From Gemmatimonadota bacterium (GTDB lineage: Bacteria; Gemmatimonadota; Gemmatimonadetes; Gemmatimonadales; Gemmatimonadaceae), in NCBI GenBank assembly GCA_003223455.1, contig QHVE01000031.1:6281-41647 (forward strand): 35,367 nucleotides of DNA. Direction: 5' to 3'. The translations under genes were made by a program, and so were the position numbers. How positions within the stretch are numbered: position 1 is the stretch's first letter; each line of letters begins with the position of its first letter. Of this stretch, positions 1 to 33,744 are shown in pieces. Under the pieces are notes generated by a model, which searched no databases, was not told where the DNA came from, and worked only from the letters and a program-made list of their open reading frames with translations.

Positions 1-361
1 GCGCGAGGAAGACGACGCCGGCCGACTCCGCCCCCCAGCCGAACAGCGGCAGCTTTCGCAACTCCGACTTGGCGATGAAGGTGTAGCGCGGCAGCACCGA
101 CGCGATGGCGAACACGTCGAACCAGCTCACGTGATTGCAGGCGTACACCGCACCGCGTCCGGGCACTATCCCCTCCGGATGGTGCACTTCGATCTTCGAC
201 CCCGCCGCGGCGATCATGCTGCGCGCCCAGGTGCGCATGCACCACTGCGCCACACCATGCTCCCCTTCGTGCACACCGAGCAGGCGAGCGACGATGACGA
301 CGGGTGCGAGGAGGATGGTCACCACCGCCACCGCGAGGACCGTGAGGACGGTGCGCATCAT
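1..361 (-). CDS. plsC: 1-acyl-sn-glycerol-3-phosphate acyltransferase, C-terminus cut by window edge
   Basis: Acylates lysophosphatidic acid to phosphatidic acid in membrane phospholipid synthesis. About 120 N-terminal residues are visible. A hydrophobic segment (residues 4-28) precedes the acyltransferase motif I, CNHVSWFD, with the catalytic pair H77 and D82. This is followed by a typical FIAKSELRKLPLFGW stretch. The start at 361 is chosen because its ATG overlaps the thiL stop codon (ATGA arrangement), so translation is probably coupled. The acyl-acceptor motifs further downstream lie outside the window. The family call is firm from the NHxxxxD block. PlsC itself, rather than a related lyso-lipid acyltransferase, is inferred. 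Confidence 0.85.
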   Translation of the reverse strand, partial: MMRTVLTVLAVAVVTILLAPVVIVARLLGVHEGEHGVAQWCMRTWARSMIAAAGSKIEVHHPEGIVPGRGAVYACNHVSWFDVFAIASVLPRYTFIAKSELRKLPLFGWGAESAGVVFLA

Positions 362-1311
362 GAAAGGTGGTCGTAGCCTCGGAGGAGGTCAACGCGACCG
401 CCGCGTCCGTCGAGGCCCACGCCGTGCCCCTCGGCGACAAATCCCACTTCCGTCAGCGGAAGGTCGAACTGCGCACGGAACTCGTCCGCGCTCGGACGCG
501 CGTCCGCCGGAAATGCGACGAGCAGCTCGTACTCCTCGCCGCTGGAGGCGGCGCCCTCCGGCGTGATCCCGTCGAGGCACGGAAGCGACGCGAGTTCGAT
601 CACGACGCGCACGTCGCTCGCTGCGGCGAGATGTCCTGCATCGGCGATGAGACCATCGGACACGTCGATCGCCGCGCGCGCGCCGTGTTCGGCCAGCCAG
701 CGCCCTTCGGCAATGCGCGCCCGCGGCGCGGCGAAGCGTGCCCGGTCGACGTCGCGCGGCGTCGCGCCACGAAGCAGCGCGTCGAGCGCGGCGCCAGGGC
801 CGCCGAGCATGCCCGTGACGTACAGCGCGTCACCCGTCCGTGCACCGGCCCTCTGGAGCGGCCGCGGGCTGGTGCCGAGCACGGTGATCGTGAGCGAGAG
901 CTCGCCCGCGCGCGTGACGTTCCCGCCGACGATGGGGCAGAGCGCTGCGGCCGCGACCTCGCCGACGCCGTGCGCGAGCGCTTCCATCTCGCCGCGCCAC
1001 GCCGGCGGGACGCCGAGCGCGAGCAGCAGCCCCGCGGGGGTCGCGCCCATCGCCGCGAGATCGCTCAGTGCGGCGGCGGCCGCTCGCGCGCCGATCTCGT
1101 GCGGTGTGAGCCACTCGCGTCTGAAGTGCACGTGCTCGAACGTCGCGTCGGTGCTCACGACGAGCGACTCCCCCGCGGGCACTTGCAGCATCGCCGCGTC
1201 GTCGCCGATCCCGCTCGCCTGTGAGCCCCACACCTGAAGCATCGCGCGGATGGCGTCGAACTCGACACCGGTGCCGAGCGGCAGATGCGACTGCGGAGGG
1301 GTGGGCATCAT
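358..1311 (-). CDS. thiL: Thiamine-monophosphate kinase
   Basis: Phosphorylates thiamine monophosphate to thiamine diphosphate with ATP, the last step of cofactor synthesis, in the cytoplasm. The 317-residue protein has the usual family length. Visible ThiL/PurM-type motifs are GIGDDAA (34-40), STD (53-55), ALSDLAAMGA (81-90), IDVSDG (215-220) and SGEEYELL (257-264); the aspartates bind Mg-ATP. The usual GGDT block reads GGNVT (129-133), a small deviation. The start overlaps the stop of the upstream nnr gene by four bases, and its own stop overlaps the plsC start, so the three genes look co-transcribed. No thiamine (TPP) riboswitch is visible upstream, as expected for an internal operon gene. 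Confidence 0.95.
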   Translation of the reverse strand: MMPTPPQSHLPLGTGVEFDAIRAMLQVWGSQASGIGDDAAMLQVPAGESLVVSTDATFEHVHFRREWLTPHEIGARAAAAALSDLAAMGATPAGLLLALGVPPAWRGEMEALAHGVGEVAAAALCPIVGGNVTRAGELSLTITVLGTSPRPLQRAGARTGDALYVTGMLGGPGAALDALLRGATPRDVDRARFAAPRARIAEGRWLAEHGARAAIDVSDGLIADAGHLAAASDVRVVIELASLPCLDGITPEGAASSGEEYELLVAFPADARPSADEFRAQFDLPLTEVGFVAEGHGVGLDGRGGRVDLLRGYDHLS

Positions 1312-2876
1312 GGCGCTGGCTCACCCACTGCCGGCAGTTCGGCGAGTACCGGAGGACATGGCGTATCGGCGGCGATCGACCACACCGAGGTCAGCGCGTG
1401 CACGACGTCCTCGAGCGTGTATCCCCGGACCTGATTCGCGCTCACGGCTGCGGCGGCACGACCGTGGGCGAAGGCGGCCAGTGCGCCGGCGAGTGGCGCG
1501 TCCCCCGTCTGCGCGAGCAGCGTTGCGGCGATACCGCCGAGGAGGTCACCCGCGCCGCCCGTGGCGAGCACGGGCGTTCCTTCCGCGACGACGCAGGTGG
1601 GGGCGCCGTGCGACGCGATCACGGTCGGCACGCCCTTGAGAAGTACCGCCGCACCAGTGTCCTCGGCGAGCCTCGCGGGAAGATCGAACCGTCCGTCGAG
1701 CACCGCATCCACGTCCAGTCCCGCCAGCCGGCCGAACTCCGCGGGATGCGGAGTGAGGAGCGCCTGGCGACGGTCGAGGAGTACGCCGAGCGCGGCCGTG
1801 TCGCCGGCGAAGGCGTTGAGCGCGTCGGCGTCGAGCACCACTGGTCCCTTCCACGCGCCAAGCAGCCGCTCCACCAGCTCGCGCGCTCCTCCTCCCAGGC
1901 CGGGGCCGACGAGCAGCGCGTCGGCCCAACCGGCGAGCGCGTCGAGCGCCGTGTCGTCCGTTGGCCACGTTGCCGCGAGGGCCGCCGGTTCGGCCTCCTG
2001 GATGGCCGGAAGCGATTCGGGCGCGACGACGCAGCGCACGAGCCCCGCACCGCTGCGCAGCGCCGCGCGCGCCGCGAGCACGACGGCACCCGCCATTCCC
2101 CTGGCGCCGCCGACGATGGCGATCTTCTTCCGCGTCCCCTTGTGCGCGTCGGCGGAGATCCGCGGCAGCGCGGCGGCGAACCATCCCGGGGTCGCGAGCC
2201 GCATGCGCTCGCCGGCATCGCGCGCGTGCGCGCCGAGTCCGATGTCGACGACGACGATCGTGCCGCACGCCTCGCGCGCCACGAGATGACCGCGCTTGAT
2301 CGTGCCGAAGGTGATCGTCAGCGCACAGCGCAGGCCCCCCGTGCTCCTGCCATTGCTCGCGACGAGACCGGTCGGCACGTCGAGCGCGACGAGCATCGCG
2401 CCACGCTCGGCCAGCCGACGCAGCGACTCGACGGCGACGGCGATGTCGCCGCGCAGGGCGCCGTCCGCCGAGAGGCCAGTGCCGAGCACGGCATCGACGA
2501 CGAGCGACTCGCCGCCGGAGTGCAGATCGTCGATCCGCCCGCTCGTCTCGACCCCCGCGGCGCGTGCCTGCTCGCGCTCGGCCCGCGAATCGGCGGTGAG
2601 GGCGGGCACGCACTCGACGACGCGCACGCGCACCCCCGCCGCGTGCAGGGCGTGCCCGACGACCCAGCCGTCGCCGCCGTTGTTCCCCGGCCCCGTGGCG
2701 ACGACGACACCCGTGGCGAGTCGGTCGTGATAACGACGCACGATCTCGGCGGCCGCCGCGGCGCCGGCGCGCTGCATCAGCGCGCGCGACGGGATGCCGG
2801 CCGCGATGGCAGCCGCATCGCAGGCCGATGCGCCGGCCGCGTCGACCACGGCCACGGGAAGGAAGCGCGGGATCAT
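1308..2876 (-). CDS. nnr: Bifunctional NAD(P)H-hydrate epimerase / ADP-dependent NAD(P)H-hydrate dehydratase
   Basis: Repairs damaged nicotinamide cofactors. The N-terminal YjeF_N domain (about 1-220) interconverts the R and S epimers of NAD(P)H hydrate and shows GPGNNGGDG at 62-70. The C-terminal ribokinase-like domain (about 248-515) dehydrates the S form with ADP. It shows the GPGLG loop (324-328), LDADALNAF (348-356), LLTPHPAEF (373-381) and the TGGAGD block (439-444) with the catalytic aspartate. At 522 residues it is a full-length two-domain fusion. Its last four bases overlap thiL. A 31-base gap separates it from the zinc-ribbon gene upstream. The assignment is secure. Confidence 0.95.
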   Translation of the reverse strand: MIPRFLPVAVVDAAGASACDAAAIAAGIPSRALMQRAGAAAAAEIVRRYHDRLATGVVVATGPGNNGGDGWVVGHALHAAGVRVRVVECVPALTADSRAEREQARAAGVETSGRIDDLHSGGESLVVDAVLGTGLSADGALRGDIAVAVESLRRLAERGAMLVALDVPTGLVASNGRSTGGLRCALTITFGTIKRGHLVAREACGTIVVVDIGLGAHARDAGERMRLATPGWFAAALPRISADAHKGTRKKIAIVGGARGMAGAVVLAARAALRSGAGLVRCVVAPESLPAIQEAEPAALAATWPTDDTALDALAGWADALLVGPGLGGGARELVERLLGAWKGPVVLDADALNAFAGDTAALGVLLDRRQALLTPHPAEFGRLAGLDVDAVLDGRFDLPARLAEDTGAAVLLKGVPTVIASHGAPTCVVAEGTPVLATGGAGDLLGGIAATLLAQTGDAPLAGALAAFAHGRAAAAVSANQVRGYTLEDVVHALTSVWSIAADTPCPPVLAELPAVGEPAP

Positions 2877-2907
2877 CTCGACGTGCGGTCCGCGCGGCGC
2901 GCGGCGG

Positions 2908-3105
2908 CTACTTCTGGGAGGCGCCGACGGAGCGCCCGTACCCGAGCTCGCCGTTGTCGATCCTCACGTTGAACCCGCATTCGGGGTTGCTGCACACCCA
3001 TGCCTTGTAGGTGATGGGGGCCCCGTCGCGACCATAATCGCTGAGCGGCAGGAGCGTGCCCACTCCGCACTTGCGGCAGGTCGGCAGCTCGGCGGGGAGA
3101 GTCAT
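2908..3105 (-). CDS. Small zinc-ribbon protein
   Basis: A 65-residue protein with two cysteine pairs, CRKC (C10, C13) and CSNPEC (C38, C43), spaced as a rubredoxin/zinc-ribbon knuckle. No other domain is present. Its function is unknown. Comparable small ribbons often bind nucleic acid or act as accessory subunits, but nothing here decides between these. It lies between the Minf_1886 gene and nnr on the same strand with gaps of about 25-31 bases, so it is probably in the same transcript. Coding status rests on the intact cysteine pattern and the tight packing between neighbours. Confidence 0.75.
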   Translation of the reverse strand: MTLPAELPTCRKCGVGTLLPLSDYGRDGAPITYKAWVCSNPECGFNVRIDNGELGYGRSVGASQK

Positions 3106-3129
3106 CGCGAGGCGATGGTCACGCGTGGC

Positions 3130-3513
3130 TCAGACGAGCTGCGCGCACCACGGATAGTCACGCTCGAACGCCTGGTCGAAGTCGAACACGCCGATGAACT
3201 CGTCGCGCGAATCCGTCGGCTGGCTCATGAGCAGCTCGAGATCCACCAGGGTGAACACGACGTCGCCGATGTCGGACGAGCTGCGGATTCCCCAGCTGTC
3301 GAGCACGAGTCGCGCGAGCACTCCGAACCGATCGAGCGCCAGGTCGCGGCACGACAGCGCGAGCTCGCGGCCGGAGATGTGCCGGCGCTCGGGCAGGCGC
3401 TGCTGGCAATACTCCAGCGCGCCGAGCACGAAGAGATAGGCGCGCTCGTCGAACCGCTGCTCGCGCATGCGGATCCGATCCATGATGCCGTCGCGGAAGG
3501 CGAGCTCGGGCAC
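3130..3513 (-). CDS. Minf_1886 family protein (function unknown)
   Basis: I recognise the Minf_1886 family from the pattern RFDERAYLFVLGALEY, RHISGREL, ALDRFGVLARLVLDSWGI and the DIGDVVFTLV segment, ending with FDFDQAFERDYPW. The family is conserved in Planctomycetes, Verrucomicrobia and relatives, is about 130-140 residues long and has no known activity. The open frame extends upstream to an ATG at 3651. I prefer the GTG at 3513 (127 residues) for three reasons: family similarity begins there, the extra N-terminus is low-complexity, and the upstream ATG falls inside the glyA-distal hairpin at 3634-3664. An AGGAG lies about 12 bases before the GTG, somewhat far. The 3651 start remains possible. 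Confidence 0.75.
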   Translation of the reverse strand: MPELAFRDGIMDRIRMREQRFDERAYLFVLGALEYCQQRLPERRHISGRELALSCRDLALDRFGVLARLVLDSWGIRSSSDIGDVVFTLVDLELLMSQPTDSRDEFIGVFDFDQAFERDYPWCAQLV

Positions 3514-3633
3514 GGGTGCTGACGACTCCTGGTGAAACGGTGCTTCGGACGCGTCCGGGCGAGCGACGCACGAGTGGCGTGCGCGGGTGTAACGGTGGTG
3601 GCCGCCACTGGGGGCGGCTGGTGCAGTATGGTG

Positions 3634-3664
3634 CCCGGGGCCGTTGGACACAACCGGCCCCGGG
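3634..3664 (-). terminator. Strong GC hairpin downstream of glyA
   Basis: CCCGGGGCCG (3634-3643) pairs with CGGCCCCGGG (3655-3664). The stem continues as TTG/CAA past a one-base bulge, closing a GACA loop. It begins nine bases after the glyA stop in the direction of transcription. There is no T-tract, so this is a hairpin-type terminator candidate or a 3'-end stabiliser. A second weaker GCCGCC/GGCGGC pair lies just beyond it. It marks a likely boundary between the rpiB-glyA unit and the Minf_1886 unit. Confidence 0.6.
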
Positions 3665-3672
3665 GCGCCCCG

Positions 3673-4962
3673 CTACCGGTGGGCGGGCTGAGGCGCGGGG
3701 TAGAGCGGGAACGCCGACGACAGCGCGCGGACCTCGTCCTTCACTCGCTCGGCCACGCTCGCATCCTCGGCCGACATCAGGACCTGATCGATCAGCTCCG
3801 CGATGCGCGTCATCTCGGGCTCGCGCATGCCACGCGTCGTCACCGCCGGCGTGCCGATGCGAATGCCGCTCGTCACGAACGGCGACTGCGTCTCCTTCGG
3901 CACCGTGTTCTTGTTCACCGTGATCGCCGCGAGGTCGAGCGCCTTCTCCGCGACTTTGCCGGTGAGTCCCTTGTTGCGGAGGTCGACGAGCATGAGGTGG
4001 TTGTCCGTGCCGCCCGAGACGAGCTGATAGCCGCGGGAGACGAGCGCCTGCGCCAGCGCCTGGGCGTTCGCGACGATCTGCTTCGCGTAGACCTTGAACG
4101 AGGGCTCGAGGGCTTCCTTGAGCGCGACCGCCTTGGCGGCGATCACGTGCTCCAGCGGCCCCCCCTGAGTGCCGGGGAACATCGCCTTGTTCACCACCGC
4201 GGCGTGCTCGGCCTTGCAGAGGATCATCCCGCCCCGTGGACCACGCAGCGTCTTGTGCGTCGTCGTCGTGACGACGTCGGCATGCGGGATGGGCGACGGA
4301 TACACGCCGGTCGCGGAAAGTCCGGCGAAGTGCGCCATGTCCACCATGAACACCGCGCCGACCTCCTTCGCGATCTCGGCGAAGGCCGCGAAGTCGATCA
4401 CGCGCGGGTAGGCGCTGTAGCCGGCGATGATCATCTTCGGCTTGTGCGTCCGCGCCTGGCTTCGCACCGCGTCCATGTCGATGTAGCCGTCGTCGTCGAG
4501 ACCGTACGAGACCGCCTTGTACAGCAGCCCCGAAAAGTTGACCGGCGAGCCGTGAGTGAGGTGGCCCCCCTGCGAGAGGTCCATTCCGAGGAAGGTGTCG
4601 CCCGGCTTCATGAAGGCGAGAAAGACCGCGGCGTTGGCCTGGGCGCCGGAGTGCGCTTGCACGTTGACGTGATCGGCGCCAAACAGCTGCTTGGCGCGGT
4701 CGATCGCGAGCTGCTCGATCTTGTCCACCACCTCGCAGCCGCCGTAGTAGCGCTTCCCCGGCAGCCCTTCGGCGTACTTGTTCGTGAGGGGAGAGCCCAT
4801 CGCCTCGAGCACGGCGGGCGAGACGAAGTTCTCGCTGGCGATGAGCTCGATCCCGTCGTTCTGTCGGGCGATCTCGTCCTCGATGAGGCCGGCGACCTCG
4901 GGGTCGGTCTCACGCAGCGCGTCCCCGGGGGGACAGCGTTCCCAAGCGGACCACGATGACAT
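3673..4962 (-). CDS. glyA: Serine hydroxymethyltransferase
   Basis: PLP enzyme interconverting serine plus tetrahydrofolate with glycine plus methylene-tetrahydrofolate, the main source of one-carbon units. The 429 residues include a roughly 15-residue N-terminal extension compared with typical GlyA. Visible landmarks are [10 protein letters not shown] (39-48), [15 protein letters not shown] (61-75), the SGAQAN phosphate-binding segment (105-110), VDMAHFAGL with D208, and the PLP lysine K237 in [14 protein letters not shown]. Its ATG shares one base with the rpiB stop (TGATG), so translation is coupled; an rpiB-glyA pair is a familiar bacterial arrangement. The assignment is secure. Confidence 0.97.
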
Positions 4963-5441
4963 CAGCGACTCTCCTCGGTTGAAGAATTCGACTCGGCGTC
5001 ACGCTCGATCTTCGCGATGCGGCGCGCATGCCGGCCGCCGGCGAACGGAGTGTCGAGCCACGCTTTCAGTATTGCCTTCCCCTCTTCGGTGCCGACGAAG
5101 CGCGCCGGCAGCACGAGCACGTTGGCGTCGTTGTGCTCGCGGGCCAGCGCCGCGACCTCGGGAGTCCACGCGACGGCCGCCCGCACGTGCGGGTACCGGT
5201 TCGCGGTGTACGACATGCCGAGGCCGGTCCCGCACAATAATACGCCCCGCTCCACCTCGCCGCGCGAGACGCGCTCGGCCAGCGGATGCGCGTAGTCGGC
5301 GTAGTCGGTGGACGCGTCCGTCGCCGGCCCGAGGTCTTCGACGGCATAGCCGAGCGACTTCAATTCGGCCTCCAGCGCTTCCTTGAGCGCGAAGCCGGCG
5401 TGGTCGGAGGCCAGGAGAATCTTGCCGGTCGGGTCAGGCAT
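4962..5441 (-). CDS. rpiB: Ribose-5-phosphate isomerase B
   Basis: Interconverts ribose 5-phosphate and ribulose 5-phosphate in the pentose phosphate pathway. The 159-residue protein has the RpiB/LacA fold signatures SDHAGF (12-17), [12 protein letters not shown] with the catalytic base C70, and HNDANVL (103-109). The start at 5441 is preceded by a purine-rich GGTTAAGAA. The period-8 array described at 5451-5628 lies immediately upstream, so that element becomes the 5' leader if transcription reads in from the acyl-CoA operon. The C-terminal tail after the HARRI motif is short and polar. Confidence 0.93.
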
Positions 5442-5450
5442 TTCTTAACC

Positions 5451-5628
5451 AGTGAGTTGGTGAGTTGGATAGTTAGTGAGTTGGTCGGTGAACTGGTGAA
5501 TGGAACGGCCCTGGCTCAACCAGCCTGGAGACCACGTGTGGGGGTCGCACGCTGGTCGAGTGGCCGGTGGAGTCGACTCGCCAATCAACCGACCAACCAA
5601 CCAGCGATCCGACTCACGAACTCACCCA
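5451..5628. repeat. Period-8 inverted array with central hairpin (intergenic element 1)
   Basis: From 5451 the plus strand reads as consecutive 8-base units: AGTGAGTT, GGTGAGTT, GGATAGTT, AGTGAGTT, GGTCGGTG, AACTGGTG. The right side (5581-5628), read on the minus strand, gives GGTGAGTT, CGTGAGTC, GGATCGCT, GGTTGGTT, GGTCGGTT, GATTGGCG. This is the same order with about 36 of 48 matches by hand count. The middle holds a smaller hairpin, CTCAACCAGC (5515-5524) against GCTGGTCGAG (5551-5560). The element fills the whole spacer between the acyl-CoA dehydrogenase stop (which it overlaps) and the rpiB leader. Function is unknown. Confidence 0.7.
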
Positions 5629-6734
5629 TCTCCTGCTCGTTCAGCAAACAACTCCCTCGCGATGACGATCCTCTGCACCTCCGACGTCCCCTCATAGATC
5701 TCCGTGATCTTCGCGTCGCGGAAGAAGCGCTCGACGGGGTAGTCCTTCACGTAGCCGTAGCCGCCGAAGATCTGCACCGCCTGCTGCGTGGCCCACATCG
5801 CCGTCTCGCTCGCGAGGAGCTTGCTCATCGAGCCGTACAGCGTCGTGGTCTCTCCGCGGTCCTTGTTCGCCGCGGTCGCGTGCAGGAGCGCGCGCGTCGA
5901 GGCGATGCGTGCGCCCATGTCGGCGAGCTTGAACTGGATCGCCTGGAAATCGCGGATCGGTCGCCCGAATTGCGTCCGCTGCGCGGCGTAGTCGAGCGAG
6001 TGCTCGAGCGCCGCGCGCCCGATGCCGAGCGCCTGCGCGGCGATCCCCAGCCGGCCGTGGTCGAGCGAGCGCATCGCGTACACGAACCCTTGCCCCTCCT
6101 GGCCGGACGCGCGGAGGCCCATCTTGTCTTCCTTCTTCCCGACGTGGAACCCGGGCAGGTCCGGTGTGACGATGAACGCCGAGATGCCGCGCGACTTGTG
6201 GGCGTCGGCCATCGGCGTCGAGCGCGCGATGACGATGATCACGTCCGCGTGGCTCCCCGTCGTCACCCAGCTCTTCGTGCCGGTGAGCACCCAGTCGTCG
6301 CCGTCGCGCTCGGCGCGACAGGTCAGCGACGACGCGTCCGATCCGGCCTCCGGCTCGCTCAGCGCGAACGCGCCGATCTTCTCGCCGCGCGCCATCGGTC
6401 GCAGGAAGCGCTCCTTCTGCTCCGTCGTGCCGAAGTTGAGCAGCATCTGCGTCGGCAGCGAGTTGTGCACGCTCATCAACACCGCCGTCGACGCGTCCGC
6501 GACGGCGATCTCCTCGAGCGCCATCAGATACGTCACCGTATCGAGGCCAAGGCCATCCCACTCCTCCGGGATCATCATCCCGAGGAAGCCGAGCGCGCCG
6601 AGGCTGTCGGCGACGCCGCGGTCGAACAGCGCTTCGCGATCCCACCGTGCGGCATGCGGCGCGATCTCTTCCTCGGCGAACTGCCGGGCGAGCTCGACGA
6701 CGGCGCGTTGCTGTTCGGTGAGTGGGACTAGCAT
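5622..6734 (-). CDS. Acyl-CoA dehydrogenase with an apparent 18-20 residue internal gap
   Basis: FAD enzyme that introduces the alpha-beta double bond into acyl-CoA (short-chain/butyryl-CoA type by similarity and context). Signature 1 is ALSEPEAGSD (124-133), signature 2 is QRTQFGRPIRDFQ (252-264), and the catalytic glutamate is E348 in IYEGTSE. The start at 6734 is preferred to 6758 because of the GGTGGGG ribosome-binding-like run and the family N-terminus. Family members normally read DKMG-RAS, then about 18-20 residues of the form DTxxLxFxDVRVPxxxLLG, then EGQGF. Here RAS (208-210) runs directly into GQEGQGF. The frame is intact, but part of the beta domain near flavin and substrate is missing, so activity is uncertain. 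It is the last gene of the thiolase operon. Confidence 0.88.
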   Translation of the reverse strand: MLVPLTEQQRAVVELARQFAEEEIAPHAARWDREALFDRGVADSLGALGFLGMMIPEEWDGLGLDTVTYLMALEEIAVADASTAVLMSVHNSLPTQMLLNFGTTEQKERFLRPMARGEKIGAFALSEPEAGSDASSLTCRAERDGDDWVLTGTKSWVTTGSHADVIIVIARSTPMADAHKSRGISAFIVTPDLPGFHVGKKEDKMGLRASGQEGQGFVYAMRSLDHGRLGIAAQALGIGRAALEHSLDYAAQRTQFGRPIRDFQAIQFKLADMGARIASTRALLHATAANKDRGETTTLYGSMSKLLASETAMWATQQAVQIFGGYGYVKDYPVERFFRDAKITEIYEGTSEVQRIVIARELFAERAGDG

Positions 6735-6791
6735 GAACACCCCACCGGACGGACGCATGTCCGCTCCGAGAGTTCGAGAATGCTGCCCTTC

Positions 6792-7637
6792 TCAGTACTC
6801 ATAAAACCCCCTTCCCGACTTCTTCCCCAGCCACCCCGCCGCCACGTACTTCCGCAACAGCGGCGCGGGCCGGTACTTCGAATCGCCGAGGCCGTGGTGC
6901 AGCACCTCGAGGATCGCGAGGCAGGTGTCGAGCCCGATGAAGTCGGCGAGCGCGAGGGGGCCCATCGGGTGGTTCATGCCAAGCTTCATCACGGTGTCCA
7001 CCGCCTCGGGGGTGCCGACACCCTCCATCACGCAGTAGACGGCCTCGTTGATCATCGGCATGAGGATCCGGTTGGCGACGAAGCCGGGGTAGTCGTTCAC
7101 CTCCACCGGCGTCTTCCCCACGGCGCGGCACCACTCGAGGACGCGCCGCATCGTCGCATCCGACGTCGCCAGGCCGCGGATGACCTCCACGAGCTGCATC
7201 AGCGGCACGGGATTCATGAAGTGCATCCCGATCACGTGATCGGCGCGCGACGTCCGGCTGGCGATCTCCGTGATCGAGATCGAGCTCGTGTTCGTCGCCA
7301 CCACCGCGCCCGCATCGGTATGCCGATCGAGGTCGGCGAAGATCTGGAACTTGAGCTCGCGGTTCTCCGTCGCGGCCTCGATGACGAGCGCGGCGCCGCG
7401 CACCGCGTGCAGCGAGGTGCTCGTCGTCACGCGTCCGAGGATCGCGTCACGCTCCTCCGCGGGTACGGTGCCCTTCGCGATCTGGCGGTCGAGGTTCTTC
7501 TCGATCGTCACGCGGCCGCGGCCGAGCGCTCCTTCGGCGACGTCGATCATCGTCACGGCGAATCCGTGCTGCGCGAACACGTGCGCGATCCCGTTCCCCA
7601 TCTGCCCTGCGCCGACCACCGCGATGCGATCGCTCAC
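6792..7637 (-). CDS. 3-hydroxybutyryl-CoA (3-hydroxyacyl-CoA) dehydrogenase
   Basis: NAD-dependent oxidation of 3-hydroxyacyl-CoA, or the reverse reduction of acetoacetyl-CoA, in beta-oxidation or butyryl-CoA metabolism. The 281 residues match the single-function Hbd/PaaH type. Visible motifs are the Rossmann GAGQMG (9-14), ATNTSSISI (114-122), the catalytic histidine H139 in [20 protein letters not shown], and [16 protein letters not shown] in the C-terminal helical domain. The GTG start at 7637 overlaps the CPBP gene stop in a GTGA arrangement. The open frame extends much further upstream, but that part is a shadow of the CPBP gene. Thiolase and acyl-CoA dehydrogenase in the same operon support the role. 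Confidence 0.93.
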
Positions 7638-8443
7638 GACGACTCCTTGCGGCGCTGGAGCCGCGTACGATAGAGATAGGCGAGGGCCGCGATCATGCCG
7701 AGTGCCGCGGCGAGTCCACCCTCCGGCCCCCATTGGCCGCCGGTGAGCCAGTCGGGCCCTTGCTCGACCATGCGATAGTCGGGCGCTTCGAAGCGCATGC
7801 CGCTCACCGACGCGTGAAACGCGACGGCGAGCACCCAGTTCCAGGCGACGTGCGCGGCCGACGACGCATACACACTGCGGAACGTGACGCGGATCGCCCC
7901 GAGAAATACACCGGCGAGCGTGACGATGCAGAACGACTGCACCGTCACGCCGGCGTTGCGCAGATGTGCGGCGCCGAACAGCAGACTCGTGACGCCGACG
8001 GCGGTGGGGCCGCCGAGTCCGTCGCGCAGCGTCGTGAGGAGATACCCTCGGCTGACGAGCTCCTCGCCGAGCGCCGCGACGATGAGAAACACCGTGAGCG
8101 AGAGTGCGGCCGAGAGCGACGAGCCTTCCGGCCCGGGGACGATGCGCAGCCATCCCGTGAGCAGCAGCACGCCGCATGCGAGTCCGATCGCCGCGCCTCC
8201 GAGCAGCCAACCCTCGGCGAGCGCGCGGGGAGCCGCCGCGCGGCGATCCATGCCGACGTCGCTCCACGGCCGCACGTCGACCGAGCGGAGCATGATCGCC
8301 GTGGCGACGACGACGGCCACGAGCTGGAGGGAGACCGACAACAGCATCGACGACTCGGTGCCGAGTCGCTGGAGGCCGACGATGGTGCCGACGACGTAGG
8401 CGATCGTCACCTCCGCCACGATGAGCAGGAGGAGGAACGCCAC
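7634..8443 (-). CDS. CPBP-family (CAAX/Abi-type) intramembrane metalloprotease
   Basis: A multi-spanning membrane protein of about 269 residues with all three motifs of the CPBP family. These are EELVSR (E127, E128, R132), the F156-H160 pair in FGAAH, and HVAWN (H198, N202). The family includes prenyl-protein endopeptidases and bacteriocin-processing or self-immunity proteins; the substrate here is unknown. It sits inside an acyl-CoA/biotin operon between bioY and the 3-hydroxyacyl-CoA dehydrogenase, overlapping the latter by four bases. The start is uncertain. No good ribosome-binding site precedes the GTG at 8443, and the frame stays open upstream to the bioY stop, so the first membrane helix may begin earlier. 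Confidence 0.82.
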
Positions 8444-8499
8444 CGCGAGCGCGATCGTGCGGCCGAGCGTCCTGCGTGCGTCGGCCGCCGGCTCGGTGG

Positions 8500-9045
8500 T
8501 CAGAGAGTCGTTCCGCTCCGGCGTCCGGACAGTGCCGCCGCCACGATGGCCTTGAGAAGATCGGCCGCGACGAACGGGAGGACGCCCAGCACCGCCGCGG
8601 TGGTCACGCTGCCCGTGATGATCGCGAGCTGCGACAATCCACCGGCGTAGAGGACGAGGATTCCGGCGATCGCCGCGACGAGCCGCGCCGCGAACCGCTC
8701 ACGTCCCGCGCCGAGCCAGCCGGCGACGGCGGCCGCGACCGGGTATGCCAGCAGATAGCCGCCGGTCGGTCCGAGCAACCGCGCCAGTCCCGGCGCCCCG
8801 ATCGGCGCGAACACCGGGAGTCCGGCGACGCCGGCGACGAGATACAGCACCATCGCCGCCGCTCCGTCGATGGGCCCGATGAGCAGGCCGGCCAGCACGA
8901 CGACGAGCGGCTGGAGCGTGAGCGGCACCGGAGTCTTCGGCAGTGGCAGCGCGATCTGCGACGCGAGCGCGAGCGCCACTGCCACGATCACGATGCCGAT
9001 CGCGCGGCTGCGCGGGGTGCGGACGGCGAGAGCGAGCGTGGTCAT
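8500..9045 (-). CDS. bioY: Biotin transporter BioY (ECF S component)
   Basis: Substrate-binding membrane subunit for biotin uptake. The 181-residue, six-helix protein shows [21 protein letters not shown] (a typical BioY N-half), [13 protein letters not shown] and the conserved [14 protein letters not shown] loop. The start at 9045 is chosen because a GAGGGAAG ribosome-binding site lies within the end of the thiolase gene, whose stop is one base away; the longer frame to 9252 is a shadow of the thiolase gene. No ECF ATPase (BioM) or BioN is in view, so it either works alone or uses a shared energising module elsewhere. Biotin serves acyl-CoA carboxylases, which fits the acyl-CoA operon. Confidence 0.92.
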
Positions 9046-9046
9046 G

Positions 9047-10246
9047 TCACTTCCCTCGGGTGACGGAGAGCGCCACCGCGTCGCCGCCGCCGAGGCAGAG
9101 CGTCGCGAGGCCGGTGGTGAGATTCCGATCCTGCAGAGCGTACAGCAGCGTCGTGAGCACGCGCGCACCGCTCGCGCCGATCGGGTGCCCGAGCGCGATG
9201 GCGCCACCGTTGACGTTGACGCGGTCCCAATCCCACTCGAGCCCCGCGCCATCGGCGAGCGCCTGCGACGCGAACGCCTCGTTCGCCTCGATCAGATCGT
9301 AGTCGCCGATGCTCGAGCTCTCCTTCCTCATGAGGTTGCGCACGGCGGTGATCGGCGCGAAGAAAAGCTCCTGCGGGTTGACGGCGCCAGTCGCGTACGC
9401 GCGCACGCGTCCGAGCACGGGCAGACCGTTCGCTTCGGCGTACGCCTGCGACGTCACGACGAGCGCCGCGGCGCCGTCGTTGAGCGAGCTCGCGTTGCCC
9501 GCGGTCACCGACGCGTCGCTGCCCTTGCCGAACGCCGGCTTGAGCTTCGCGAGCACGTCGGCCGTCGTGTCCACACGAGGACCCTCGTCCGCGTCGACGA
9601 TCGTATCGCCCTTGCGGCCGCTCACGGTCACGGGCGCGATCTCGGCGGCGAACTTTCCGGCGCGCTGCGCGTCGACCGCCTTGCGGTGCGAAGAGGCGGC
9701 AAACTCATCCTGCTCGCGTCTGGATATGTCTGCCTTCTTCGCCGTGTACTCGGCGTGCCCGCCCATGTGCACGTCGCACGACGCGCACCACAGCCCGTCC
9801 TTGATCATGCCGTCGACCATCGTCTGGTCGCCCAGCTTCACCCCGTTGCGCATGCCGTACACGTAGTACGGCGCGTTCGACATCGACTCCATCCCTCCGG
9901 CGACGATGACTTCGGCGTCGCCTGCCTTGATCGCCTGCGCGGCGAGCATCACGGCCTTGAGCCCCGAGCCGCACACCTTGTTGACCGTCACGGCGCTGAC
10001 GGTGGCGGGGATCCCGGACTTGAGCAGCGCCTGCCGCGCGGGAGCCTGGCCCACCCCGCCCTGGATGACGTTGCCCATGATGACTTCCTGCACCTCACCG
10101 CCGTCGATGCCGGCGCGCTCCAGCGCGGCACGGATGGCGACTGCGCCGAGCTCGGGCGCCGTGACGGACGACAGCACGCCGAGGAACTTGCCGATCGGCG
10201 TGCGTGCTGCGGCAACGATGACCGGAATGCGAGTCGCGTCTGGCAT
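9047..10246 (-). CDS. Acetyl-CoA C-acetyltransferase (thiolase)
   Basis: Condenses two acetyl-CoA to acetoacetyl-CoA, or cleaves beta-ketoacyl-CoA. The 399 residues are typical. The nucleophilic C92 lies in VNKVCGSGLKAVM, H354 in GGAIALGHPIGASG, and the second catalytic C384 in CLGGGDAVAL; the last block is usually CxGGGxG, so GGGDA is slightly unusual. NEAFA is present near 317-321. The ATG at 10246 is chosen over the longer open frame because the family N-terminus (RIPVIVAAARTPIGKF) starts there. No clear ribosome-binding site precedes it. It is first in the operon with bioY, the CPBP protease, the 3-hydroxyacyl-CoA dehydrogenase and the acyl-CoA dehydrogenase. Confidence 0.95.
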   Translation of the reverse strand: MPDATRIPVIVAAARTPIGKFLGVLSSVTAPELGAVAIRAALERAGIDGGEVQEVIMGNVIQGGVGQAPARQALLKSGIPATVSAVTVNKVCGSGLKAVMLAAQAIKAGDAEVIVAGGMESMSNAPYYVYGMRNGVKLGDQTMVDGMIKDGLWCASCDVHMGGHAEYTAKKADISRREQDEFAASSHRKAVDAQRAGKFAAEIAPVTVSGRKGDTIVDADEGPRVDTTADVLAKLKPAFGKGSDASVTAGNASSLNDGAAALVVTSQAYAEANGLPVLGRVRAYATGAVNPQELFFAPITAVRNLMRKESSSIGDYDLIEANEAFASQALADGAGLEWDWDRVNVNGGAIALGHPIGASGARVLTTLLYALQDRNLTTGLATLCLGGGDAVALSVTRGK

Positions 10247-10262
10247 GGGAGAAATGTAATGG

Positions 10263-10504
10263 GCGGGATGCGAGATACGCATCGGCGAACGCATGCAGCG
10301 CAGTACTGCGGGAACAGCAACCAGATCGACGCGGAGCTCGCGGAGCGACGGCGGGAGGACCGAGCAAGGCCCTCGCGCGAGGCAGGCGCAATGCCGACTC
10401 CAAAGTCCGTTCCCTTCGGGCTCGAGGGGCTCGGACCTGACGACAGACGAACGGCCTCGGGACAGCGAAGCATCCCGAGGCCGTTCGCGCATCCCGCATC
10501 CCGC
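10263..10504. repeat. Spacer bounded by an 18-bp imperfect inverted repeat (intergenic element 2)
   Basis: The thrS-thiolase spacer is enclosed by 10263-10280 (GCGGGATGCGAGATACGC) and 10487-10504 (GCGCATCCCGCATCCCGC). The reverse complement of the second matches the first at 15 of 18 positions. Each arm is built of 7-base units (GCGGGAT, GCGAGAT; GCATCCC twice). The arms end three bases from the thrS stop and 16 bases from the thiolase start. Inside are the 15-bp hairpin at 10448-10487 and two 12-base palindromes (10299-10310, 10371-10382). The thiolase operon promoter should also lie here, but I cannot place it. Confidence 0.6.
10448..10487 (-). terminator. Perfect 15-bp hairpin after thrS
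   Basis: CGAACGGCCTCGGGA (10448-10462) is perfectly complementary to TCCCGAGGCCGTTCG (10473-10487), with a 10-base loop. It lies 20 bases beyond the thrS stop in the direction of transcription. There is no T-run on either side, so it resembles the hairpin-only terminators of GC-rich bacteria. The stem core CGGCCTCGGG recurs in the hairpin at 33811-33843. Confidence 0.65.
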
Positions 10505-10506
10505 AA

Positions 10507-12486
10507 CTACACCTTCCCCGCCTCCAGCGTCAGCGCCCGGCTCGCGATCTCCGCCGTGATGCGTCGGATGAACTCGTCCACCGCCACCGGCGCCGGTTTC
10601 TGCCCTTCGCCCGCCCCACGCGTGTTCACGGCCACCTGATCCGCCTCCGCCTCACGGCGGCCAATGACGCACATGTACGGCGTCTTCATGCGCGCGCCCT
10701 CGGCGATGCGGTACTTGAGCGTCTCGCTCCGGTCGTCGAGCGACGCGCGGATCCCGGCCTGCACCATCCGCTCGACGATCGCCGCCGCGACGGGCGCCTG
10801 CTCCTGCGAGATCGGGAGCACGCGTACCTGCTCCGGCGCGAGCCATGTCGGGAATGCGCCGGCGAAGTGCTCGATGAGGATCGCGATGAATCGCTCGAGC
10901 GAGCCGCTCACCGCACGATGGATCACCACCGGCCGGTGCTCGGCGTTGTCCTCGCCGACATATGTGAGATCGAACCGCTCGGGCGCGGCGTAGTCGAGCT
11001 GGATCGTGCCGAGCTGCCACGCGCGTCCCAGCGAGTCCGTGACGTCGAAGTCGATCTTGGGGCCGTAGAATGCGCCGTCGCCCTCCTTGAGCGCGTACGG
11101 CTTCCCGGTCGCCTCGAGCGCGGCGCGCAGCGAACCCTCGGCGCGGTCCCACATCGCGTCGTCGCCGATCCGCGTCTCCGGTCGCGTCGCGAACTTGAGC
11201 GTCGCCGTGAGCCCGAACGACTCGTAGTAACCGAGGATGAACTTCATGAGGAAGCCCACCTCGCTCGCGATCTGATCCTCGCGGAGAAAGACGTGACAGT
11301 CGTCCTGCGAGAACTGCCGCACGCGCGTCAACCCACTGAGCGCGCCCGTCACCTCGTTCCGATGCAGCACGTCGAACGTGACGTAGCGCAGCGGCAGCTC
11401 GCGATAGGAGTGCCGCTTGGCGAGATACAACAGATAGTGCGACGGGCAGTTCATCGGCTTGAGCGAGATGTCGTGCTCCCCGCTCTCGCTGTCGAGCACG
11501 AGGAACATGTTCTCGCGATACTTCCCCCAGTGCCCCGACGTCTCCCACAGTCCCTTGTTGTACAGGAGCGGCGTGCGGATCTCGGCGAAGTCGCGCTGCT
11601 GCCGCTCGCGGCAGTAGTCGACGAGCAGGTTGTAGAGCGTCGTCCCCCGCTCGGTCCAGAACGGCGAGCCCGGCGAGTACTGGTGGAACATGATTAGATC
11701 GAGCTCGCGCCCGAGCCGCCGGTGATCGCGCTTCTTCGCCTCTTCCAGACGATAGAGGTACTGGTCGAGATCCTCCTTCTTGAACCACGCCGTGCCGTAG
11801 ATGCGCTGCAGCATCTGCCGTCTCTCATCGCCACGCCAATAGGCGCCCGCGGTGTTGAGCAGCTTGAAGTGCTTCAGGCGGCCCGTATCGGGGACGTGGG
11901 GTCCCTTGCACAGGTCGATGAACGGACCGTCGGTGTAGGTGGAGATGATCTCGTTCGGATCGGTGAAGTCGTCGAGCCGCTCGAGCTTGAGCGGATCGTC
12001 GACGAACCGCTTCCGCGCTTCCGACGGACTCACCTCCTCGCGCACGAACGGGTACTTCTCCGTCACGACCTTGCGCATCTCCTTCTCGAACGCCTCGAGA
12101 TCCTCCGGCGTGAACGGCGACGCGACCTCGAAGTCGTAATAGAAGCCGTCCTCGATGGCCGGCCCGAAGCCGATCTTCGCATCGGGGCGGAGGCGCCGCA
12201 CGGCCGTCGCGAGCACGTGCGCGGCGGAGTGGCGCAGCACGCCGAGCGCCTCGGGATCGCGCTCCGTGAGAACGCGGAACGCGCCCCCCTTCCGGAGCGG
12301 TGTCATCACGTCCTGGATCTCGCCGTCGACCGACACCGCGACGGCCGCGGAGAGGAGTCGCTCGCCGATCGAGCGGATGACGTCGGCGGGGAGCGTGCCG
12401 GCGGGAACGCTGCGCGTCGCACCGTCGGGCAGGACCAGTGTCAGCTCGGCGTCCTCGACGACGGGGGCGGCGGGACTGTCGATCAT
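10507..12486 (-). CDS. thrS: Threonine--tRNA ligase
   Basis: Charges tRNA-Thr in the cytoplasm. The 659 residues give the full bacterial layout. An N-terminal TGS domain (about 15-75) comes first, then the editing domain beginning LRHSAAHVLATAVRRL with its HxxxH metal motif and IGFGPAIEDGFYYDF. The class II core carries KPMNCPSHYLLY (zinc-ligand cysteine), RVRQFSQDDCHVF (motif 2 area) and a motif 3 region GSLERFIAILIEH. The anticodon-binding domain begins near WLAPEQVRVLPIS. The ATG at 12486 has no obvious ribosome-binding site, and a 31-base gap separates it from the small membrane protein upstream. No T-box leader is seen. The assignment is secure. Confidence 0.97.
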   Translation of the reverse strand: MIDSPAAPVVEDAELTLVLPDGATRSVPAGTLPADVIRSIGERLLSAAVAVSVDGEIQDVMTPLRKGGAFRVLTERDPEALGVLRHSAAHVLATAVRRLRPDAKIGFGPAIEDGFYYDFEVASPFTPEDLEAFEKEMRKVVTEKYPFVREEVSPSEARKRFVDDPLKLERLDDFTDPNEIISTYTDGPFIDLCKGPHVPDTGRLKHFKLLNTAGAYWRGDERRQMLQRIYGTAWFKKEDLDQYLYRLEEAKKRDHRRLGRELDLIMFHQYSPGSPFWTERGTTLYNLLVDYCRERQQRDFAEIRTPLLYNKGLWETSGHWGKYRENMFLVLDSESGEHDISLKPMNCPSHYLLYLAKRHSYRELPLRYVTFDVLHRNEVTGALSGLTRVRQFSQDDCHVFLREDQIASEVGFLMKFILGYYESFGLTATLKFATRPETRIGDDAMWDRAEGSLRAALEATGKPYALKEGDGAFYGPKIDFDVTDSLGRAWQLGTIQLDYAAPERFDLTYVGEDNAEHRPVVIHRAVSGSLERFIAILIEHFAGAFPTWLAPEQVRVLPISQEQAPVAAAIVERMVQAGIRASLDDRSETLKYRIAEGARMKTPYMCVIGRREAEADQVAVNTRGAGEGQKPAPVAVDEFIRRITAEIASRALTLEAGKV

Positions 12487-12517
12487 GTGGTGAGTCGGTG
12501 GAACGGGTCCGGTCGCG

Positions 12518-12682
12518 TCAGCCGAGCAGTGGTGCGAGCAGCTTCGCGTACTTGAAGTACGACACGACGCCGGCGACGATCGCGAGGCCGACGACCGCCC
12601 AGAGCACCACCCTGCGGTAGGAGACGTCGCTCTCCGTTTCCGTCACCTCGGGCTCGGCCCGGGACTCGCGCGTCGGACGCAT
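12518..12682 (-). CDS. Small single-pass membrane protein, 54 residues
   Basis: An open frame of 54 codons with an acidic N-terminus (residues 8-20, rich in E and D), one hydrophobic helix (about 25-41) and a short C-terminal YFKYAKLLAPLLG segment. The single helix after a charged N-terminus and the position near housekeeping genes recall SecE, but I do not see the SecE signature and do not assign it. It lies 31 bases upstream of thrS on the same strand, so co-transcription is plausible. No strong ribosome-binding site precedes the ATG. Coding status is inferred from the helix and the well-behaved length. Confidence 0.5.
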   Translation of the reverse strand: MRPTRESRAEPEVTETESDVSYRRVVLWAVVGLAIVAGVVSYFKYAKLLAPLLG

Positions 12683-12794
12683 CTGCAGGCCGGTTTCAGG
12701 GGGACCGTGGGCGGCCTTCTTCTTGCACCGCTTCGCGAAACTTTCCCTCGTAAGCTATCCTTGCGGCTGACCCTACGCCACAGGTTTTCCCGCT

Positions 12795-13601
12795 ATGCCA
12801 TATCTGCGTTTTCAGGATGACGACGAGTCGTCCCTCGGGGGCACGATCACGAGTGCCGTGCTCGGAGCCGTCGCCGGTTTCGCCGTTGGCATGTTGGTCG
12901 CGCAGCGAGTCGGAGGGTTCCGTGGACTCGTGGATTCGGTGCGGCGCCGCCGCGCCGACGGCGATGAAGACGTCGAGGCGGGCGCGCCCGCAGTGGCCGA
13001 CGATTTCAGCGAGTTCGACGACGAATACGACGAGCTGGAGGATGAAGGGGTGCCGAACGAGGGACTTGAGGAGCGTGTGCTCGAGGCGTTTCGAAACGAT
13101 CCGATTCTCTCCGAGCGAGCGATCGACATCGGCGGGATCGGTGAGGACACGATCGAGCTCGCGGGGTGGGTGAACAACGAGGAGGAAGCGGACCACGCCG
13201 TCGTGCTCGCGCGCGGCGTTCCCGGCGTGGAGACCGTCGTGAATCGCATCGCCGTCGGCGAAGTCGAGGAGCGGATCCGCGATCACTCGCGCCGGTTCGA
13301 GGAAGGCGACGACGCGCTCACGGAGGCGCGCTGGGAGGGCCGCACGATCGGCACCGGGCGCCGCCGTCAGGGCACGTCGGACGAGCCCGACCGCCACGCC
13401 ACGCCGCGGGTCGAGCTCGAGGAGCGCTGGTCCAAGGCCGAGCATGAGATGGCGCAGGCGGCCGACGAGACGACGGGCATCGCCGAGCGCCGAGCGTCCA
13501 CCAAGAAGACGCCCAAAGGCGACCGCACCGGAGGTGCTCCGGTCGCGCCGACCGGCGTGCCGAAAGGCGATCACGTCGCCGATCCGACCGCCGAGGCCTG
13601 A
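12795..13601 (+). CDS. BON-domain protein with N-terminal glycine-rich membrane segment
   Basis: A 268-residue protein. Residues 15-43 form a small-residue-rich helix (GGTITSAVLGAVAGFAVGMLV), suggesting membrane insertion. An acidic linker (about 55-86) follows. The BON domain (about 90-155) begins LEERVLEAFRNDPIL and contains DTIELAGWVNNEEEADHAVVLARGV and VVNRIAV, the usual phospholipid-binding fold of OsmY-like proteins. The C-terminal third is charged and low-complexity. BON proteins act in envelope stability or osmotic stress; the exact role here is unknown. It is transcribed divergently from the 54-residue gene and thrS, with a 112-base shared upstream region, and precedes valS by 75 bases. 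Confidence 0.8.
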   Translation: MPYLRFQDDDESSLGGTITSAVLGAVAGFAVGMLVAQRVGGFRGLVDSVRRRRADGDEDVEAGAPAVADDFSEFDDEYDELEDEGVPNEGLEERVLEAFRNDPILSERAIDIGGIGEDTIELAGWVNNEEEADHAVVLARGVPGVETVVNRIAVGEVEERIRDHSRRFEEGDDALTEARWEGRTIGTGRRRQGTSDEPDRHATPRVELEERWSKAEHEMAQAADETTGIAERRASTKKTPKGDRTGGAPVAPTGVPKGDHVADPTAEA

Positions 13602-13647
13602 GCCCGTTCGGGGCGTCGCGACGCCCTGGTGAGCGACCTTCAACCGA

Positions 13648-13679
13648 CATGACCCGCGGGTTAACTTCCGCGGGTCATG
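13648..13679 (+). promoter_or_regulatory. 12-bp inverted repeat burying the valS start codon
   Basis: CATGACCCGCGG (13648-13659) and CCGCGGGTCATG (13668-13679) are perfect reverse complements around the 8-base loop GTTAACTT. The last three bases of the right arm are the valS ATG itself. In RNA this would place the start codon at the base of a very stable hairpin; in DNA it is a 32-base dyad suitable for a dimeric regulator. No alternative in-frame start lies upstream because TAA occurs at 13662-13664. The position is seen in the sequence; the regulatory role is inferred. Confidence 0.6.
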
Positions 13680-16517: not shown

Positions 16518-17689
16518 TCGCCGCGCTCGCTCTCGCCGCCTGCGCTTCGGCCGGCCCTCCCCCCGGAGGGGCCGAGGACCACGCGCCACCGAAACTGCTG
16601 CGCATCTCCCCCGACACCAATGCCGTGAACGTCGACTCGAAGGCGGCGACGTTCTACTTCGACGAGACGATCAACGATCGTGGCACCGACGCGCAGGACG
16701 TCACGAACATGTTCCTCGTGTCTCCCTCGGACGGCACGCCGCGCGTCGGCTATCATCGGTCGCGCATCGACGTGCGACCGCGGCACGGGTTCCGGCCGAA
16801 CACGGCGTACACGATCACGCTGCTCCCCGGGCTGTCCGACCTGCGAAACAACCCGATGAAATCGGGGACCACAATTGTGTTCTCGACGGGGCCGACGATT
16901 CCCACACTGCGCATCACGGGGATCGCGTTCGACTGGACGGCCGAGCAGCCGCTCCCGATGGCGCTCATCGAAGCCGTCTCGCCGGACAGCGTGGTGTATC
17001 TCGCGCAGTCCGACTCGCTCGGCCACTTCGCCGTCGGCCCGCTGAATCCGGGGTCGTATCTCGTGCGCGCGACGGTCGACCAGAATCACAACCACAAGCC
17101 CGACCGCGGCGAGTCCTTCGACACGCTCCGCGTCAATGCGCCGCAGGCCAAGCCCGTCGAGCTGCTCACCGCGTCGCGCGATACCCTGCCCGCCCGCCTC
17201 ACCACCGCGGCGGTCGCCGATTCGATGACGCTGCGTCTCACATTCGATCGGCTGCTCGATCCCGCGCAGCAGTTCCCGCCGGCCAACTTCCATCTCGCCG
17301 GTGCCGACAGCGTAGCGATCCCGATCACCGCCGTGCGCACACCGCGGGATGACGCGGCACTGGCCCGGGCGCGGCAGCAGCAGGCCGCCGACTCCGCGCG
17401 TCGAGCCGATTCCGTCGCGGGGCGCCCACATCCGAGACCCGAGACTCCCCCCGCCGACTCGACGCCCAAGCCGACCCGCCCTCCACCGTTCAACACAATC
17501 AGCCTGGCGCTCGGACGACCGCTCACGCCCAATGCGTCGTACCGCGTGCGAGTGACGACGATCCGCGCGCTGAGCGGTCGCGAAACGAGCAGCGAACGCT
17601 CGTTCAGTGCGCCGAGAGCGGGGGCAGCGCCGCCGACCGCCGACTCCACCGCGGCGCCACGCCGCACGCCACGACCGTCGCGCCCGTGA
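16502..17689 (+). CDS. Lipoprotein with N-terminal SbsA-type Ig-like (Big_5) domain
   Basis: A 395-residue predicted lipoprotein. The GTG start gives a short signal ending LALAAC with the lipidated C14. Residues about 30-145 form an Ig-like Big_5 domain (PPKLLRISPDTNAVNV, FRPNTAYTITLLPGLSDLRNN, IVFSTGPTIP). A carboxypeptidase-regulatory-like repeat follows (SDSLGHFAVGPLNPGSYLVRATVDQNHNHKPDRGE). The C-terminal region holds a proline-rich linker and a further beta-rich part. Such proteins sit on the envelope of Bacteroidota and Gemmatimonadota; the specific role is unknown. The start overlaps the valS end by 16 bases, and the stop overlaps the selA GTG, so it is translated within the operon. 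Confidence 0.85.
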   Translation: MRRGLIAALALAACASAGPPPGGAEDHAPPKLLRISPDTNAVNVDSKAATFYFDETINDRGTDAQDVTNMFLVSPSDGTPRVGYHRSRIDVRPRHGFRPNTAYTITLLPGLSDLRNNPMKSGTTIVFSTGPTIPTLRITGIAFDWTAEQPLPMALIEAVSPDSVVYLAQSDSLGHFAVGPLNPGSYLVRATVDQNHNHKPDRGESFDTLRVNAPQAKPVELLTASRDTLPARLTTAAVADSMTLRLTFDRLLDPAQQFPPANFHLAGADSVAIPITAVRTPRDDAALARARQQQAADSARRADSVAGRPHPRPETPPADSTPKPTRPPPFNTISLALGRPLTPNASYRVRVTTIRALSGRETSSERSFSAPRAGAAPPTADSTAAPRRTPRPSRP

Positions 17690-20841: not shown

Positions 20842-20848
20842 TTTTCCT

Positions 20849-20887
20849 GCGCACCCGCGCACTCCCGCACCCGCGCACTCCGCACCC
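20849..20887 (+). repeat. Period-8 array directly before purH (intergenic element 3)
   Basis: Five consecutive units occupy the whole purN-purH spacer except for seven bases: GCGCACCC, GCGCACTC, CCGCACCC, GCGCACTC, CGCACCC. The last unit abuts the purH ATG. There is no purine-rich ribosome-binding site in this spacer. Unlike the other arrays, it has no inverted partner. Confidence 0.6.
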
Positions 20888-33691: not shown

Positions 33692-33744
33692 ACGTGTACT
33701 CCTGAGAGCGTGAGCGGCATGTGAAGCTTGTCTCGACGGGGAAC

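Follow-up and report, generated by a model that had tools for sequence, protein, structure and literature searches.

Dispersed arrays of G-rich 7-base units have been described in Xanthomonas (GGGAATC) and Nostoc (GGGGAYT), where they are mostly intergenic (Rehm et al. 2015, PMC4692102). They lie at most 50 bp from stop codons when read on the coding strand, or from start codons when read on the non-coding strand, and they are rare between divergent genes. In two Xanthomonas genomes, 70 and 75 pairs are in convergent orientation, i.e. mirrored. That study assigned no role to the gene-end heptamer arrays. The TAACTGA sequences of Beggiatoaceae are dispersed intergenic heptamer direct repeats that recur in distant phyla (MacGregor 2015, PMC4679880), and the BrickBuilt MITE of Porphyromonas gingivalis is a tandem array carried in a dispersed inverted-repeat element that is always intergenic (Klein et al. 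2015, PMC4596501).

Here we describe an element of a Gemmatimonadota bacterium (assembly GCA_003223455.1) located in a 35,367-nucleotide stretch of contig QHVE01000031.1, hereafter named the window. Its closest known kind is the gene-end heptamer arrays of Xanthomonas and Nostoc. As in those arrays, the units are short, in tandem, dispersed and intergenic (40 + 33 sites here), close to stop codons (53/56) and rare between divergent genes (2/39 and 2/33). Unlike them, the units described here are octamers, with GG rather than GGG in the main unit, and belong to several families in one genome; a constant hairpin stands between the arms, and one family is scattered as an entire element of 175 bp. 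The two other systems are less close. Most TAACTGA repeats stand immediately before start codons, and nearly all are direct, with one indirect case reported (PMC4679880). BrickBuilt has a 23-bp unit and a single array between a leader and a tail, and it lies 49-591 nt from genes instead of at the stop codon (PMC4596501). A literature search confined largely to open-access journal papers listed no account of these elements in Gemmatimonadota.

Enterobacterial REP/BIME sequences are also palindromes scattered over the 3′ ends of genes. A REP unit is a short hairpin with a link to RAYT genes, whereas the window family consists of octamer arrays and has no RAYT link. Neisserial DNA uptake sequence pairs are repeated inverted pairs at gene ends that form a hairpin and act as a terminator. 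There, the uptake sequence is one fixed short word, while the unit described here is arrayed and varies by locus. From ERIC and CRISPR sequences, the element appears distinct by its anatomy.

Anatomy of the element between rpiB and an acyl-CoA dehydrogenase gene

The element and its two neighbouring genes are organized as follows:

5452-5626, no strand: one copy of a dispersed palindromic repeat family, about 175 bp (BLAST in its own genome, query 5-179 of the stretch 5448-5630, and alignment of 38 copies)
5452-5504, plus strand: left arm, a degenerate octamer array of the 'beta' type, adjoining rpiB (inverted repeat and copy alignment)
5503-5572, no strand: long palindromic core, beginning with GAACGGCC (inverted repeat and copy alignment)
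5515-5560, no strand: inner hairpin, 5515-5527 / 5548-5560 (inverted-repeat pair)
5573-5625, read on the minus strand: right arm, an octamer array of the 'alpha' type (GGTGAGTT..GGTCGGTTGATTGG), adjoining the acyl-CoA dehydrogenase stop (inverted repeat and copy alignment)
5622-5624, minus strand: TGA stop codon of the acyl-CoA dehydrogenase gene, provided by the first GGTGAGTT unit
5622-6758, minus strand: acyl-CoA dehydrogenase gene, upstream neighbour (Pfam PF00441, PF02771, PF02770)
4962-5441, minus strand: rpiB, downstream neighbour (Pfam PF02502)

The two arms, 53 nt each, are 75% complementary and spaced by 68 nt. At the settings used, they form the longest of the 21 inverted repeats in the window. 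The original prediction, made from the letters of the window, had proposed two mirrored arrays at 5451-5628 with about 36/48 matches. The inverted repeat is real and its ends are roughly as given, but the figure becomes 75% over 53 nt and the ends move to about 5452 and 5626. The inner hairpin proposed between the arms is indeed present, with 85% complementarity. The prediction had also described non-random units of exactly 8 bases. The left arm has a clear period of 8 (GTGAGTTG GTGAGTTG GATAGTTA GTGAGTTG GTCGGTGA ACTGGTGA), and 22 of 32 positions match at lag 8 across the gap 5442-5621, a level reached by 0 of 100 dinucleotide shuffles. In the right arm, on the other hand, lags 4 and 12 are stronger than lag 8; hence 'exactly 8' is true of one arm only.

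The minus-strand RNA of the element folds at -98 kcal/mol, compared to -62.6 kcal/mol for shuffled sequences (z -7.7, 200 shuffles), and the plus-strand DNA fold has a z of -5.4. The consensus unit GGTGAGTT contains GG only and is devoid of the GGG tracts able to form G-quadruplexes; GGG or GGGG is present in some other units of the wider array-hairpin class. The core starts with GAACGGCC, which is common to this core and to the short terminator-like hairpin of the genus. As anticipated by the original prediction, the element overlaps a stop codon, the acyl-CoA dehydrogenase TGA lying within the first unit, and its other end is only 9-10 bases from the rpiB start. No Rfam family matched anywhere in the window at gathering score. 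A scan of window positions 1-20000 for U-tract terminators and sigma-70 promoters gave 3 terminator-like sites, all outside 5452-5626, and nothing resembling a promoter. Of the two features of an intrinsic terminator, a GC-rich hairpin followed by a T tract, the element has the hairpin and lacks the T tract.

A dispersed family at gene ends

BLAST of the stretch 5448-5630 against its own genome (4.96 Mb in 127 contigs) yielded 77 matches; many places were hit on both strands, as a palindrome would be. At least 40 distinct places of the assembly carry the family, 38 of them near full length; since scoring covered 40 of the 71 first-look candidates, the real family size may exceed 40. The original prediction had named the lack of similar elements elsewhere in the genome, together with a lag-8 signal no higher than in shuffles, as the outcome that would speak against it, and dozens of similar elements were found. 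A near-invariant 16-mer of the alpha arm occurs at 51 places of the genome with at most 2 mismatches, versus 6 for the reversed pattern. The aligned copies (n=38) have a mean column identity of 80% and a near-constant length, mostly 172-181 bp. They are free of genes, have inverted-repeat ends and share the same anatomy: octamer arrays, palindromic core, octamer arrays. Since the two arms are of different types (GGTCGGTTGATTGG type and GGTCGGTGAACTAGTGAAC type), each copy has an orientation, and the GGTCGGTTGATTGG-type arm is turned toward the upstream stop codon in 13 of the 18 codirectional full-length cases. In the alignment, near-invariant columns also recur with a spacing of about 4 bases, occupied by G in the left arm and by C in the right arm.

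The position of the copies was analyzed with a gene caller trained on Pfam-supported genes of the genome, with which its calls agree. Of 39 classified copies, 18 are flanked by convergent genes, 19 by codirectional genes and 2 by divergent genes; one more copy is at a contig edge. The background, gaps of at least 60 nt in 400 kb (n=159), consists of 17 convergent, 96 codirectional and 46 divergent gaps. The copies are therefore in excess between convergent genes (18/39 versus 17/159, p=2e-6) and depleted between divergent ones (2/39 versus 46/159, p=0.001). Stop-facing edges are found at -6 to +25 nt in 53 of 56 cases, with a median of 3 nt that excludes one edge at -53, where the gene call is weak. 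At 16 of these edges (-4 or -5), the first unit contains the stop codon, and the unit's own TGA often serves as the stop of the gene. Start-facing edges (n=23) have a median of 38 nt, and some copies end only 3-17 nt ahead of the next start codon. Such placement at gene ends could partly reflect selective removal of insertions elsewhere.

Among 28 predicted pairs, a double change is present in one only, and arm complementarity within one copy is not above that between different copies (p=0.59; p=0.83 for the core). There is thus no sign of selection on the fold of individual copies: the copies spread whole, with no visible copy-by-copy repair. In addition, no target-site duplication was detected in the 38 copies for k=2-9 at several offsets, with no excess over permuted flanks, which disfavours the transposon families that make such duplications.

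Comparison with Gemmatimonadetes bacterium SH_69_11 (G007), the nearest relative compared and of the same genus, covered 789 kb and gave both flanks for 6 of the 40 copies. The site orthologous to the window copy is empty, so that insertion is the simplest reading of this copy. The site orthologous to copy L028 is empty as well. A lone GGTGAGTT unit stands at the site of L010. At those of L021 and L033, a short hairpin is flanked on one side by GGTGAGTT-type arrays, and at that of L019 there is an array-hairpin element with another unit. Taken together, these six sites (empty, single unit, other arrays) indicate that sites are reused while arms and cores change. In two other genomes of the genus, G002 (L113) and G001 (L111), mirrored arrays of their own units (CGGTTTGT and GATGACGG, respectively) are found before rpiB, with a different upstream gene.

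Short hairpins nested between mirrored arrays

The lag-8 check proposed by the original prediction was carried out on intergenic regions, and the prediction withstood it. Lag 8 is the commonest both in the source genome (12/158 gaps; other lags 0-6) and in G007 (14/234 gaps; other lags 0-5). Lag 7 ranks next in both genomes. The unit is mostly 8, not 7. With a cut at 0 of 100 shuffles, about 1-2 of 158 gaps are expected by chance per lag, and several lag-8 gaps (e.g. L075, L077, L081, L086), not array-like by eye, may be of this kind.

Many lag-8 gaps hold a hairpin of the form GGCCTCGGGA..CCCGAGGCC. The exact pattern is present at 33 forward places in the source genome, 57 in G007 and 4 in G060, and at none in the other 145 of 148 genomes of the family; a reversed-pattern control gave 0. 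The 33 forward-strand sites of the source genome, a set that excludes site L310 (reverse-strand match only), comprise 19 convergent, 12 codirectional and 2 divergent cases (p=2e-8 for convergent). Most of the short hairpins are nested between mirrored 7-8-base arrays. At 27 of the 33 sites, at least one flank has 16/24 matches at its best lag, versus 3% of shuffled flanks, and this lag is 8 or 7 in most cases. By a separate regular-expression count over 1.03 Mb of the two genomes, all 11 intergenic hairpins have an array flank. The closest approach to a T tract behind the short hairpins is GTTC or GTTT. The unit varies by locus (AGTGACTC, ACGGTTTA, GTGGTTNG, GGGGAGT, GCGGATGC, GGTGAGTT). Arms of the same locus match with a score of 14.8, versus 9.8 across loci (sd 0.93; maximum of 10000 permutations 13.6), a difference that is partly family membership since the units fall into few families.

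Two sites of this kind are found in the window:

33737-33905, no strand: second element, a short hairpin (33812-33842) between mirrored octamer arrays with a ACGGTTGG-like unit, at the 3′ end of a DUF6807 gene
10449-10505, no strand: third site, a short hairpin GAACGGCCTCGGGACAGCGAAGCATCCCGAGGCCGTTC (10453-10482), one flank of which carries a weak CATCCCGC array

The third site lies just past the stop codon of the minus-strand gene at 10507-12486, which encodes a class II tRNA synthetase. The best explanation is that the wider class consists of hairpins enclosed by two mirrored arrays of 7-8-base units, from which the long-core family of the window branched off and multiplied in this single lineage. 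The original prediction had overlooked this general form, as well as the membership of the element in a dispersed family and its absence at the orthologous site of the relative.

Other repeats were observed in these genomes. C-rich 8-base repeats (GCACCCGC, GCACTCCC) stand at 20846-20884 of the window, directly ahead of an AICARFT/IMPCHase (purH-like) gene. A small ORF at 22591-23079 has a signal-like start and long low-complexity Gly/Ser/Thr-rich repeats with a strong lag 15. In G007, another dispersed palindromic repeat, TCATCCCGAGCGAAG..GAGGGATCTGCA, occurs in gaps near array-hairpin elements (e.g. L250 17156-17378, L263 5477-5710, L294 3468-3623).

Within Gemmatimonadota, exact (GGTGAGTT)3 is confined to 2 of 395 genomes, the source genome and G007; the unit is therefore not a general feature of the phylum. 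In GTDB contigs, (GGTGAGTT)3 is found in at least 112 stretches, and the matches listed include Acidobacteria, Bacteroidetes, Chloroflexi, Planctomycetota, Armatimonadetes and Desulfobacterales. Array polarity was studied after leaving out 10 SH_69_11 stretches, on the 79 others that have 220 nt on both sides. An inverse array (score of at least 13) is present within 200 nt downstream, with the G-rich strands inward, in 19/79 cases, compared to 0/79 upstream and 0/79 in shuffled sequences. This suggests repeated independent origin of arrays under one polarity rule; arrays of different phyla may also be related by common ancestry or transfer.

Origin and candidate role of the element

We propose, with moderate confidence, that this dispersed quasi-palindromic repeat of about 175 bp at gene 3′ ends is a candidate two-way transcript-end element that spreads as a unit. 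Placement, convergent excess and fold together argue for a two-way transcript-end element, and the position at stop codons fits the transcript-end structure suggested by the original prediction. In RNA form, the element would be one long hairpin directly behind the stop codon. It could act both ways at transcript ends, by halting RNA polymerase and/or by protecting the mRNA 3′ end, so that a single copy would serve two converging genes. Whole units would spread by a process that creates no target duplication, and would often land in, or overwrite, sites where an older array-hairpin element was already present. Against this role count the lack of a U-tract at the window copy, the lack of covariation, and the copies located 3-17 nt before a start codon, where a full terminator would need an internal promoter; none appeared in the sigma-70 scan.

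The elements could instead be neutral replication products. Arrays of 7-8-base units would grow by slippage next to terminator hairpins, one arm would be copied into the other by a template switch over the hairpin, gene ends would merely be tolerant, and there would be no function beyond that of the hairpin. Such an origin would account for the better match of own-locus arms at the 33 short-hairpin sites (14.8 versus 9.8, 0/10000 permutations), for a hairpin that stays constant while the unit sequence varies by locus, and for the single unit at the G007 site orthologous to L010, which looks as a seed would. However, the own-arm match is inflated by shared unit families and is absent from the long-core family of the window, clearly copied whole to about 40 places. 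Dispersal is also required by a constant hairpin combined with few unit families per genome, and the one-way polarity in other phyla is not predicted. We therefore regard this origin as conceivable but rather improbable. A MITE, i.e. a non-autonomous element mobilized in trans by a DDE transposase that recognises GGTGAGTT ends, seems still harder to sustain and is unlikely. The element does have terminal inverted repeats and dispersed, gene-free copies of near-constant length (mostly 172-181 bp), present or absent between relatives. Yet its ends are variable arrays and not fixed termini, the 38 copies are without target-site duplication (k=2-9, several offsets), and none of the 77 own-genome matches corresponds to the same ends around a gene (127 contigs, about 96% complete; 40 of 71 candidates scored).

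By their position, dispersed palindromes at gene ends also resemble REP elements spread by a RAYT (Y1 transposase). The genome has a single RAYT-like Y1_Tnp gene (L041); the repeat at its flanks is a different one, GGGGTCAGACTCCTTGAAAA, and no copy of the window family adjoins it. We rejected RAYT as the driver and attach hardly any likelihood to such spread. The GGGGTCAGACTCCTTGAAAA repeat of the L041 locus recurs in a G007 gap (L253 2400-2643). Finally, the arrays might act as an all-frame translational backstop, a 7- or 8-base unit with TGA, TAG or TAA giving stops in three frames on the gene-continuing strand. The polarity of the arrays is as required. All three frames are stopped on the inward strand in 82% of alpha arms, compared to 17% for dinucleotide shuffles and 0% for the opposite strand, and in 74% of beta arms, compared to 36% and 3%, respectively. 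This shuffle test overstates the signal because repeats of one unit are not independent. In short-hairpin arms, the values are 33-42%, versus 9-10% for shuffled sequences and 21-24% for the opposite strand. The stop-codon content of the inward strand is thus suggestive but not independent evidence. Moreover, units GGGGATGC and GTGGTTCG are without a stop, as is the Xanthomonas unit GGGAATC (PMC4692102). We consider a backstop function very unlikely.

Beyond the candidate transcript-end element of this lineage, a broader class can be put forward only tentatively and is possible rather than probable: a cross-phylum gene-end class of mirrored 7-8-base arrays around a hairpin, with G-rich strands inward and a unit free to change, which in some lineages would act as mobile terminators replacing each other at the same gene ends without a recognisable transposase. 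In this lineage, the gene-end placement rule recurs with octamers, many units in a single genome and an unchanging hairpin that joins the arms. Position, polarity, a 7- or 8-base period and the central hairpin are conserved and can be told apart from the unit sequence, which is not conserved; this makes function testable. A terminator, 3′-end protection, a translational backstop and a replication by-product each predict different transcript ends. If whole elements truly move without target duplication, their route of movement would be worth finding.
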